Source of the DNA: Sulfobacillus thermotolerans
GTDB taxonomy: Bacteria > Bacillota > Sulfobacillia > Sulfobacillales > Sulfobacillaceae
Length of the DNA: 64,000 bases
Reading direction: 5' to 3'
Assembly: GCA_002951815.1 (NCBI GenBank)
Contig: CP019454.1
Span: 2,542,001 to 2,606,000, forward strand
The notes below the pieces were generated by a model. That model was given only the letters and a program-made list of their open reading frames with translations. It had not been told where the DNA came from and ran no database searches. The translations under genes and the position numbers were made by a program. Of the stretch, positions 30,992-34,511 are shown piece after piece. The stretch's first letter is position 1. Each line of letters opens with the position of its first letter.

Positions 30992-31752
30992 TGCCGCAAT
31001 CACTCAAAGCATTGATATTTGACGTGGATGGCACATTGGCCGACACCGAAGGTTTGGGACATCTTTGGGCCTTCAATCAAGCCTTTCAAGAGGCAGGACT
31101 GCCATTTGTCTGGGACACTGACACCTACCGTGTATTGTTAGCCGTAACCGGAGGAGAACGGCGCATCCACCACTTTCTGAGTACCCGTCCTGATTTGCCC
31201 TCTCTTAGTCGGGAACGTGTCGCACAACTACATCAACGCAAAACCGTTCTATTTGGAGAACGGGTGCAAAGTGGACATGTCTTGTGGCGACCCGGCACTA
31301 AGCGTCTTATCCGCGAGGCTAAACACAAGGGGCTAAAAGTGGGAATCGCCACAACAACTCATGAAGCCAATGTCCACGCGTTGCTGCAATCGGCATTCGG
31401 TAACGAATGGCCTAGCTGGATCGACTTGATAGGGGCGGCGCAGCATGTAGAGAATAAAAAACCTGACCCGGCGATTTACCATTGGGTCTTGCAACAGTGG
31501 GGATATGGGCCAGGTGATGTGATAGCCTTTGAGGATTCCTCGCCCGGTCTTCTAGCAGCACGTCAAGCCCAAATTCCAACCGTGATCACCATGAATGAGT
31601 GGACATATGATCACGATTTTACGGGCGCTTTGGCTGTTCTAGACAATTTGGGGGAGCCTGGAGCACCCGCACGCGTGCTTATTCCAAAAGGACAAGACAA
31701 TGTGGTCGTAGACTGCAATGTGCTACAGCAATGGTTAGAAGCGGAACGATGA
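30991..31752 (+). CDS. HAD-family phosphatase, CbbY-like
   Basis: 253 residues. Motif I DVDGTLADTEG with the nucleophile Asp near residue 10 and a C1 cap domain; motif III Lys in KKPDPAIY near 161; motif IV EDSSPGLLAA near 181. CbbY/phosphoglycolate-phosphatase-like. Its ATG overlaps the fhs stop (TGATG), so the two are coupled. A terminator overlaps its stop codon. Confidence 0.85.
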   Translation: MPQSLKALIFDVDGTLADTEGLGHLWAFNQAFQEAGLPFVWDTDTYRVLLAVTGGERRIHHFLSTRPDLPSLSRERVAQLHQRKTVLFGERVQSGHVLWRPGTKRLIREAKHKGLKVGIATTTHEANVHALLQSAFGNEWPSWIDLIGAAQHVENKKPDPAIYHWVLQQWGYGPGDVIAFEDSSPGLLAARQAQIPTVITMNEWTYDHDFTGALAVLDNLGEPGAPARVLIPKGQDNVVVDCNVLQQWLEAER

Positions 31753-31770
31753 CGTTCCGCTTTTATTTTT
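31741..31770 (+). terminator. Rho-independent terminator after fhs-HAD operon
   Basis: GCGGAACG and CGTTCCGC form a perfect 8-bp stem around a four-base loop that holds most of the HAD stop codon, followed by TTTTATTTTT. Confidence 0.9.
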
Positions 31771-31777
31771 CTTATAA

Positions 31778-31807
31778 TTGATAATGGCTCTCATTATCAT
31801 TTATAAT
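31778..31807 (+). promoter_or_regulatory. Fur-type box embedded in a near-consensus promoter
   Basis: TGATAATG-GCTCT-CATTATCA (31779-31799) is a perfect 8-bp inverted repeat matching the outer parts of the Fur box. It overlaps a -35 TTGATA (31778-31783) and lies directly before a consensus -10 TATAAT (31802-31807), spacer 18. A bound Fur-family repressor would block RNA polymerase. Controls the MFS gene 33 bases downstream. Confidence 0.75.
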
Positions 31808-31839
31808 CCTTGTAAAGACGCGCATGCAGGAGGGGTATT

Positions 31840-33075
31840 GTGAGGAAACCACAGGTGATAATGGCAGTCGGGGCAGGGATTTTCATAGGGACCTACGACA
31901 TGGGAGCGCTGTCGGTGGTTCTGCCGGACATCGTCAAACAATGGCACATTGCCACCGCGGCCATCACCATGTTAGGGACCTCAACCTTTATCGGCATGAT
32001 TATCGGCAGCCTTATCTCGGGACTCCTCGCAGACAAATGGGGGCGGCGCATTATCCTTCTTTTGGACTTTGTAGCGTACGGGATAGCGGCAATGATGAGC
32101 GCATTCAGCCCCAACTTTTTATGGTTAGCAGCAATGCGCGTGGTGGTGGGGATAGGGGTCGGAGCGGATTTTGCGGTGGCATTTCCTTACTTGGTCGAAT
32201 ATGCGGGACAGCTGAGGGGGCGTGTCATGGCATGGGCTATGTGGGCCGCAAACTTTGGCATGCTGATCGCGTATGGAGTAGGTGCTCTGGCGTTGCGCTA
32301 TCCAGGCGGGTGGCGTGTCCCGCTTTTTGTCGGTGCGTTGTTGGTTGTTCCTGTGCTATGGGTCAGGCATAAGATTCCCGAATCGGCAGCGTGGAGAGCC
32401 CATCATGCCGCCTCCTGGTCGGATATCAAAAACATCGTGCACCATGCGCAGTATCGTAAAAGCGTGTTGCTCTCTTCCGTTACGTGGCTCAGTTATCAAG
32501 TGAGCGACCAAGGCCTTACGTTATTTCTTCCCTTAATGCTCGTCACAGTTTTTGGCACAACCGCTTCGGGTGCCGCGTGGCACAGCGTCTTGGTCAAGGC
32601 TATTACCATTCCCGCCGCGCTTGTGACAGTGGCCTTGATTGATCGCTGGGGACGGCGTCCATTACAAATTTGGGGTTTTTTAGGGCGCGCATTGGGGTTA
32701 ATAGGGTTAGGAACTTTGCTGATATGTGAGCCTGGACCACTTAGGCAATACCCTTTGTGGCAATACAGCGCATGGCTGCTCTTAGTTATCGCCTATGGCT
32801 TTGGCGCTTTGGGTCCAGATAAAACGACGGTCATTACCGCAGCAGAACAAATCCCGACCCAGTGGCGTGCTACGGCGCAAGCTATAGCCGAAGCCAGCGG
32901 CCGCATCGGTGGCATTATTGGTATTGTCGGCTATAGTCTTCTCACTCCTTGGTGGGGTCCGGGATCCGGGCTTCTCTTTTTTGGAGCCATGGCGTTGGTT
33001 GGCACTATCATTAGTCAACGAACTCTCCCCGAAACCAAAAATCTGGTGCTCGCTTCTGCAAGCGAATCGTCATAA
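31840..33075 (+). CDS. MFS transporter under a Fur-like box
   Basis: 411 residues with twelve predicted helices. The sugar/acid-porter type motif GLLADKWGRR lies near residue 68, repeated as ALIDRWGRRP in the second half, and the C-terminus has RTLPETKN, as in the metabolite:H+ symporter family. Start is GTG with GCAGGAGGGG upstream. The promoter carries a Fur-type operator, so expression probably rises when metal is scarce. It might carry a metal chelate such as citrate, but the substrate is not shown. Confidence 0.82.
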   Translation: MRKPQVIMAVGAGIFIGTYDMGALSVVLPDIVKQWHIATAAITMLGTSTFIGMIIGSLISGLLADKWGRRIILLLDFVAYGIAAMMSAFSPNFLWLAAMRVVVGIGVGADFAVAFPYLVEYAGQLRGRVMAWAMWAANFGMLIAYGVGALALRYPGGWRVPLFVGALLVVPVLWVRHKIPESAAWRAHHAASWSDIKNIVHHAQYRKSVLLSSVTWLSYQVSDQGLTLFLPLMLVTVFGTTASGAAWHSVLVKAITIPAALVTVALIDRWGRRPLQIWGFLGRALGLIGLGTLLICEPGPLRQYPLWQYSAWLLLVIAYGFGALGPDKTTVITAAEQIPTQWRATAQAIAEASGRIGGIIGIVGYSLLTPWWGPGSGLLFFGAMALVGTIISQRTLPETKNLVLASASESS

Positions 33076-33083
33076 AAACCTGC

Positions 33084-34511
33084 TTATTTCAGCTTATTTT
33101 TGGGTCGTGGTAAGCCTAATTGATGCGTATGCGCTACAGGCACTTTCCGTGAGACCCGAGAGACATACCATACCACAGGAACTAGCACGATCAACCATAT
33201 GACGCCGGAAAGGCTTAAGGGATACGCAATGGGCCAAACCGACTCATATAAGACCCACCAAAATAAGACAATGGCTAAAATCGGGAGGATGATGTGTTGC
33301 ACAAAATGCGACCGCTTATGCTCCTCACGGAAGAGTTTCATCAACGAGATATTCATTAGCGTGTGGGCTGATACTAACCCAAAGAGGACAGCGGTGGTCA
33401 TGACGTTAAAAGCCTGAGCAGGTCCTAATAGGGAGCCAATTAAAACGCCAACAATGACCGCTAATCCTGCGAGCACGCTGACACTTCGCGCAGGGGCGCG
33501 TCGCCCATTGACCTGGGCAAATCCAGTATTAATGAGTTCGTCGCGGCCAATCGCATAGAGCACGCGTGATGAGCTAGTCAGCAAGGCAATGCTGTCAGCC
33601 ATGGCGCTGTTTAACGCTAAAATGACTAAAGCCGCCGCACCCACAGGGCCTAAGTAGCGTAAAAATACGGTAACGCCCGGTGCATTAGCCCCCGAGAACG
33701 TGCCCATACGAAACATACCCCAGCCGACGGTAAGCGCATACGCTGACAGGGTTAAGGCCGCGCCCGTTAAAGTCAAAGACACTAACGCCGCTTTCCCGAT
33801 CAAGCGTCCGCGTTGTGTTTGCACCCCACCTTTTGCTTCTTCTCCCAACGAAGCATGACTGCCAATGCCGATGAAACTCGTGATGGCAAAGACCATTCCT
33901 AAAGAAACGCCTTTAATGCCCACACGGCCCACTTCGAAGGGTATCAAAGGATGCCCGGGGTGGACTTTTATCATGATGATGATCGAGGCCACAATTAAAA
34001 ATGAAATCTCAATTAAACTCGTGGTAGCCAGCACTTTAATGCTCGGACGAATTCCCATGACGGATAGTAGCCACGGCACGCCAATAAAGAAAAGCACAGC
34101 AAAAATCCAAAATAGCGGAGGTAGGGTCATATGTAGACGCGCGGCTAATCCTGGCAAAAACACACCGCCAATGTATACAGGAATAGCTGCGACGCTGAGA
34201 GTTTGGTAAAAAATTACCATAAATCCCGTGATTAGCGATGCCTTTGTCCCAAGGCCTGCCGAGACATAACTGTAATATCCGCCCGCCGACGCGCGATCTT
34301 TCGATAAATGGTAAAGCGTATTCACTTCAATAAACATCAGGCCAAAAGCCAACAAATAAGACAACGGCAACGCAACAAGCGCAAACGCGGCGCCCGCTGT
34401 CATGAAGGCGACAACATCACAGCTTGGCGCCATTCCCGCTAAACTCTGACTGACAAGGCCCCAAAAACCTACGACATTGGTGTGCAGTTCACTGTTCTCT
34501 TGAGCCACCAT
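33084..34511 (-). CDS. APC-family amino-acid permease
   Basis: 475 residues and about twelve helices. Helix 1 carries the GLVSQSLAGMAPS stretch of the APC fold, and SAGGYYSYVSAGLG near residue 77 matches the conserved APC motif. TTAGGAGG precedes the ATG. It converges with the MFS gene, eight bases apart. The amino-acid substrate cannot be told from sequence. Confidence 0.85.
   Translation of the reverse strand: MVAQENSELHTNVVGFWGLVSQSLAGMAPSCDVVAFMTAGAAFALVALPLSYLLAFGLMFIEVNTLYHLSKDRASAGGYYSYVSAGLGTKASLITGFMVIFYQTLSVAAIPVYIGGVFLPGLAARLHMTLPPLFWIFAVLFFIGVPWLLSVMGIRPSIKVLATTSLIEISFLIVASIIIMIKVHPGHPLIPFEVGRVGIKGVSLGMVFAITSFIGIGSHASLGEEAKGGVQTQRGRLIGKAALVSLTLTGAALTLSAYALTVGWGMFRMGTFSGANAPGVTVFLRYLGPVGAAALVILALNSAMADSIALLTSSSRVLYAIGRDELINTGFAQVNGRRAPARSVSVLAGLAVIVGVLIGSLLGPAQAFNVMTTAVLFGLVSAHTLMNISLMKLFREEHKRSHFVQHIILPILAIVLFWWVLYESVWPIAYPLSLSGVIWLIVLVPVVWYVSRVSRKVPVAHTHQLGLPRPKNKLK

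Follow-up and report, generated by a model that had tools for sequence, protein, structure and literature searches.

The region studied belongs to a window of 64,000 nucleotides (positions 2542001-2606000) on the single chromosome, 3,317,203 bp in length, of Sulfobacillus thermotolerans, an acidophilic chemolithotroph (PMC6803676). It comprises a gene for an MFS transporter, together with a promoter and a predicted operator immediately upstream (Table 1). Because a terminator-like hairpin closes the preceding HAD-phosphatase gene, the MFS gene is taken to form its own transcription unit, and since the downstream gene is convergent, it appears to be a single-gene unit. This downstream gene encodes an amino-acid permease (window positions 33084-34511), and a 62%-identical permease adjoins the MFS ortholog of Sulfoacidibacillus thermotolerans (L098:3288-4703), where the other neighbours differ from those of the host.

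Table 1. Features of the MFS transporter locus, in window positions.
Feature	Position	Strand	Basis
Intrinsic-terminator-like hairpin and T-rich tail of the upstream HAD-phosphatase gene	31736..31775	+	
-35 hexamer TTGATA, overlapped by the operator	31778..31783	+	sequence
Predicted Fur-type operator TGATAATGGCTCTCATTATCA, 8-5-8 inverted repeat	31779..31799	.	sequence, genome-wide pattern search, conservation
-10 hexamer TATAAT, beginning 2 bp past the operator	31802..31807	+	sequence
Ribosome-binding site AGGAGGGG	31828..31835	+	sequence
MFS transporter of 411 aa with a GTG start; predicted importer, induced by metal starvation	31840..33075	+	profiles, alignment, tree, AlphaFold model
Codons Y219-G225 (YQVSDQG)	32494..32514	+	alignment
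Codons G325-I332 (GPDKTTVI)	32812..32835	+	alignment

The operator consists of the arms TGATAATG (31779-31786) and CATTATCA (31792-31799), which form a perfect inverted repeat around the centre GCTCT. It occupies the 18-bp spacer of a promoter that matches the consensus at 11 of 12 positions and overlaps the -35 hexamer; the palindrome stands 41 bp upstream of the MFS gene, shortly 3' of the terminator. An earlier note on this DNA had described such an 8-bp repeat inside the promoter, abutting TATAAT; the repeat is confirmed, with the refinement that 2 bp separate the two elements. The E. coli 19-bp Fur box is GATAATG(ATAAT)CATTATC. The match to the Fur box that the earlier note had claimed is exact for the outer arms, TGATAAT/ATTATCA, which agree at all 14 positions with the correct spacing, and the centre GCTCT differs. 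The full internal 7-1-7 motif TGATAATNATTATCA was not found (the best 7-1-7 alignment has 3 mismatches in 14 positions), and this degeneracy of the centre, relative to the E. coli consensus, counts against the Fur reading. Other marks of a Fur operator seen here are the overlap with the promoter, conservation at orthologs and the presence of the box before other metal-uptake genes.

Perfect 8-5-8 inverted repeats are unremarkable by themselves: the window holds six, which is the ground for regarding the operator as a chance palindrome. This explanation has a negligible probability, because the sequence is rare genome-wide and the site is kept at six orthologs, which excludes it. From base composition, the 16-base arm pair is expected in ~0.0006 copies per genome. 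Genome searches were run by pattern, and exact TGATAAT-N7-ATTATCA occurs at two sites in the whole genome, both before transporter genes. The second site, TGATAATGATTAACATTATCA at 3062817, ends ~40 bp upstream of the likely start of an NRAMP gene. The layout of promoter and operator is kept, to ~58% protein identity, at six orthologs of the Sulfobacillus group, counting the window protein itself and the five nearest to it (G001, G003, G004, G017 and G026; 58-71% identity). In all of them, 61-79 bp separate the operator from the start of the aligned protein, and TATAAT lies 1-2 bp behind the operator. The same-genus genomes G002, G005 and G006 and the incomplete G007 have neither the box nor a close MFS ortholog. 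Boxes with at most one mismatch were also found before NRAMP genes in G001, G024 and G057, and a one-mismatch box precedes the gene for an FTR1/EfeU iron permease in G041, a genome of the same order as the host. The sites at MFS and NRAMP genes differ little in their arms and vary in the 5-bp centre, which indicates a Fur-type operator whose centre is not constrained.

The genome contains four Fur-family genes and one MntR gene, whose product scores above the NF003025 cut-off. One protein, L001, is a clear Fur, with 178 bits to NF051892 (below the model's own cut-off of 220) versus 74 bits for the next paralog, and its nearest solved protein is a Fur. Conservation, sharing of the box with NRAMP and FTR1 (one mismatch) and a clear Fur in the genome support the prediction that the box is a Fur operator, bound by Fur. 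The Bacillus Zur and MntR boxes differ from the operator sequence; PerR and Zur boxes start with TTATAAT and TCGTAAT, and TGATAAT is of the Fur type. Thus, where the earlier note had left repression to Fur, MntR or Zur, the Fur part is supported, whereas MntR and Zur are less likely readers of the operator. The box could instead be read by another Fur-family protein (L002, L003 or L004), given that these three are unassigned and that the recognition helices are broadly similar; however, we regard this as very unlikely, since L001 matches Fur far better than they do and the half-site is of the Fur type.

A genome-wide search for 7-1-7 Fur boxes with up to 2 mismatches gave matches that, among those with inspected surroundings, are mostly intragenic, and it revealed no classical iron regulon. 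The FeoB and FecCD loci carry no recognisable Fur box, which counts against the Fur reading; it follows that such a regulon is not seen in this genome and that the MFS and NRAMP genes bear its two strongest Fur-type sites. In E. coli and B. subtilis, Fur boxes are alike in the outer arms, the promoter overlap and targets of the NRAMP/FTR1 type, but they complete overlapping 7-1-7 motifs, whereas here the centre varies freely among targets. A similar case is mntH under Fur in E. coli and in Acidithiobacillus (PMC2631029), where a Fur box likewise overlaps the promoter of an NRAMP gene and, in the latter, the host is an acidophile. Unlike that system, an MFS gene here has the box of the NRAMP gene, and the pairing recurs under DtxR-type operators.

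We used the MFS alignment to scan the genomes of ~85,000 species. Close relatives were found in Sulfobacillus-like Bacillota and in Sulfoacidibacillus, as well as in Thermoplasmata and Actinobacteria (including Acidimicrobiaceae); as far as their names are informative, the host lineages are those of acid environments. All six orthologs from Actinobacteria (four) and Thermoplasmata (two) have upstream the sequence TNAGG-N4-CCTNA, the core of the DtxR/IdeR box, which appears in 0.1-0.4% of shuffles of the six upstream sequences. The documented DtxR/IdeR consensus is TTAGGTTAGSCTAACCTAA (PMC10317159), and the site upstream of L093 matches this 19-mer at 16 of 19 positions. A whole-genome search for TWAGGNNNNCCTWA in the four actinobacterial genomes yielded 1, 1, 2 and 1 copies, one of them at the MFS gene of each genome; the extra copy, in G158, is identical in its 14 bases and lies upstream of an NRAMP gene. 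In each of the two Thermoplasmata genomes, TGTNAGG-N4-CCTTACA has two exact sites, one at the MFS gene and the other between an NRAMP gene and a gene for a DtxR-family repressor; TGTAAGGATATCCTTACA is a putative site for this archaeal DtxR-family protein. A third type of operator, TTAGC-N4-GCTAA, was found in G014 and G022, which are of the same family as the host: two tandem copies precede the MFS gene and another precedes the NRAMP gene, while the remaining matches look incidental. Finally, the MFS ortholog of G025 has two adjacent boxes (L202:1501-1540), TGATAATCATTATCC, a Fur box with one mismatch to the canonical sequence, and GTTAGCGTAGGCTAAC, of the DtxR-/TTAGC-type; this double box is possibly an intermediate in a change of regulator.

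The same site at both the MFS and NRAMP genes was thus observed in one of four actinobacteria, two of two archaea and two of two TTAGC genomes. That the shared site was seen in part of the genomes with an MFS operator counts against a common regulon. By a hand estimate that sets a few hundred bp upstream of the NRAMP gene against genomes of 1.7-3.5 Mb, the probability of each coincidence is near 10^-4 to 10^-3; taken together, the coincidences are hard to explain by chance. The persistence of the MFS-NRAMP pairing as the repressor changes is strong genetic evidence of a shared metal job. Judged from these sequences, the MFS gene would be a member of a recurrent MFS and NRAMP metal-starvation regulon under unrelated regulators. 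It should be noted that two orthologs count against this explanation: G016/L089, an ingroup member, has no recognisable metal box, and the palindrome of L098, TTAGTATATACTAA, fits no recognised consensus. The genes neighbouring the MFS gene, mostly without a relation to metals, also count against it. More distant MFS relatives (L101-L107; 36-43% identity) were treated as an outgroup because they have neither a metal box nor D223. The 17 sequences taken as the ingroup form one group in the tree, with support of 90/95, and the operator type tracks the subgroup.

The NRAMP partner has the PF01566 domain and the alpha-6 A-x-x-M motif, and both the Ala and the Met are present in all NRAMPs of alignment A2 that cover the region (L188 is partial). 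The nearest solved structure for the Sulfobacillus protein is EleNRMT, a magnesium transporter, and the two are also alike in having Trp at the position of the first alpha-6b His. NRMTs have Thr and Ala where transition-metal NRAMPs have Ala and Met (PMC8806188). The partner differs from EleNRMT in this respect, as it keeps the transition-metal residues with no Thr/Ala replacement, which favours Fe(II)/Mn(II) as its predicted substrates. Among the NRAMP proteins (L006, L044, L042, L201 and L203), only L006 was compared with EleNRMT, and it possibly represents an intermediate NRAMP branch without H+ coupling.

The window protein itself clearly belongs to the MFS superfamily (PF07690, 134 bits; PF00083, 138 bits). 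Its AlphaFold model (pLDDT 84.7, pTM 0.86) has Z scores of ~40 to MFS structures, with XylE, SV2A and PiPT as the nearest folds; the structural search therefore indicates only the general MFS fold, and nothing narrower. The best scores were obtained with aromatic-acid, sugar and phosphate porters, in accordance with the organic-acid or sugar porter features described in the earlier note, and each is far below its cut-off: 109.7 versus 418.55 bits for the AAHS aromatic acid:H+ symporters (TIGR00895), 97.5 versus 237.8 for the sugar porters (TIGR00879) and 78.6 versus 610.3 for the phosphate:H+ symporters (TIGR00887). Among the matches listed, the transporter is far below every curated cut-off and fits no characterised subfamily, and no siderophore-carrier model is present, as the earlier note had anticipated. 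The 25 best families for the window protein, which extend down to 27.5 bits, do not include the FslD rhizoferrin importer model (NF041041), and the L091 ortholog reaches 24.6 bits with that model versus a cut-off of 500.

Among solved structures, PiPT, a phosphate:H+ symporter (PDB 7sp5, 8fvz), and XylE are nearest in fold and sequence, at a distance of ~22% identity. The GAN(TTT) motif of PiPT corresponds to GPD(KTT) here, and the TM7 aspartate of PiPT aligns with Q220, one turn ahead of D223. All 17 members of the clade have Y219, D223 and N138, none of which occurs at the same position in the 14 outgroup MFS proteins compared; D327-K328 are also invariant in the clade and are common to the nearest sister sequences as well. 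The extra acidic residues, placed in the pocket by alignment, would fit a substrate that is a cation or a metal complex. The similarity to AAHS, sugar and phosphate porters could also mean that the protein carries a non-metal nutrient (an organic acid, a sugar or phosphate) needed in iron starvation. We consider this rather unlikely, because all listed scores are far below the curated cut-offs, no link to catabolic genes was recognised in the loci read and repeated pairing with NRAMP under unrelated regulators would not be expected. Likewise, the resemblance to organic-acid porters would be compatible with an exporter of a chelator (a citrate-like acid or metallophore) made in metal starvation, and Fur-regulated MFS exporters exist, e.g., FslB of Francisella, which exports rhizoferrin (PMC4905997). 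However, export is quite unlikely, as no chelator-synthesis gene was recognised beside the MFS gene in the loci read, and the best models are importer-type families, not drug or siderophore exporters. A siderophore link was dropped after the neighbouring loci were searched, no synthesis genes being recognised next to the orthologs.

Taken together, these data make it probable that the box is a Fur operator and that the MFS protein is a second importer, beside NRAMP, of Fe(II)/Mn(II), taken up either as such or in a simple complex. When intracellular Fe(II) is sufficient, Fur (G000:C1:507154) would be bound to the operator, covering the -35 hexamer and the spacer, and the MFS promoter would be blocked; when the metal drops, the MFS gene would be expressed along with the distant NRAMP gene that has the same operator. 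The transporter would then be driven by the H+ gradient, and its substrate may be the free ions or their complex with an organic acid or phosphate; import at low pH is the most likely function. The earlier note had suggested an unrecognised metal-chelate importer. Metal import, still a prediction, gains strong and independent backing from the IdeR/DtxR-type operators of the actinobacterial and archaeal orthologs and from the repeated co-regulation with NRAMP; a chelate would be one candidate substrate beside the free ion. The host genus inhabits iron-rich acid, where iron starvation seems rare, and this counts against the proposed role.

As to the metal, Fur and IdeR boxes and the FTR1 gene under the box point to iron, whereas other observations point to manganese. 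It is conceivable, as a minority possibility, that NRAMP and the MFS protein constitute a manganese regulon, in which both import Mn(II) to replace iron in enzymes and Fur provides the low-iron signal. The partner is always NRAMP; E. coli mntH, according to the passage of PMC2631029 that cites Patzer and Hantke, is repressed by both Fur and MntR; G025 combines a Fur box with a TTAGC-type box; the archaeal repressor scores best with the MntR model, though far below its cut-off; and the Sulfoacidibacillus MFS gene adjoins PerR-like and peroxiredoxin-like genes. Conversely, the box also precedes an iron permease gene (FTR1, one mismatch), the actinobacterial IdeR-type boxes are iron boxes (PMC10317159) and a true MntR is encoded separately in the window genome. 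The PerR-like regulator and peroxiredoxin-like genes follow the MFS ortholog at L098:6239-7451 and hint at oxidative stress or manganese.

Fur-controlled MFS siderophore carriers, FslD and LbtC, are already known (PMC4905997). They are alike in being MFS carriers induced by low iron, an induction that is predicted here; the present clade differs in having no adjacent siderophore locus, in falling outside the FslD family model and in occurring also in archaea. What is new is a different MFS clade, bacterial and archaeal, that is tied to NRAMP. In the accessible part of the open-access literature, we found no report of an MFS gene that is controlled by Fur or a DtxR-type regulator jointly with NRAMP. 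The text of the S. thermotolerans genome paper contains neither Fur nor NRAMP and names MFS proteins as metal-efflux candidates. To our knowledge, metal uptake in acidophiles is poorly understood, and the usual annotation of MFS genes in these organisms is as transporters of sugars or aromatic acids or as efflux proteins. A two-gene regulon of MFS and NRAMP that outlasts the change from Fur to DtxR-type repressors across bacteria and archaea gives an unassigned transporter clade a testable substrate, and would enlarge the small set of MFS proteins linked to metal ion uptake. A broader proposal, tentative and in our estimate somewhat short of an even chance, is that the clade is a new MFS family of secondary importers that use an acidic pocket (D20, D/E110, D223, D327) to take up free Fe(II) or Mn(II) together with H+ at very low pH. 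The family would be paired with NRAMP and would have been exchanged among the bacteria and archaea that live in acid waters, in each case coming under the host's own metal repressor.

Several other boxes were observed. The substrate-binding protein behind a box in G127 (L076) was at first read as FbpA-like; this reading was dropped, since by its model scores, which are below cut-off, it is closer to a phosphonate binder, and the protein was left out of the evidence for iron. In G045 and G060, the genes behind the boxes encode a flippase-like protein and a methyltransferase. Fur-type boxes at L043:1501-1521 and L035:1501-1521 lie before a methyltransferase gene and a flippase-like gene, respectively, in two other members of the class, and the L043 methyltransferase has weak similarity to CntL, the staphylopine enzyme. 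In the host genome, three identical TGATAATATGTTATAATATAA sites (L009, L010 and L011; G000:C1:1365529, 1376376 and 1800161) are probably part of a repeated element.
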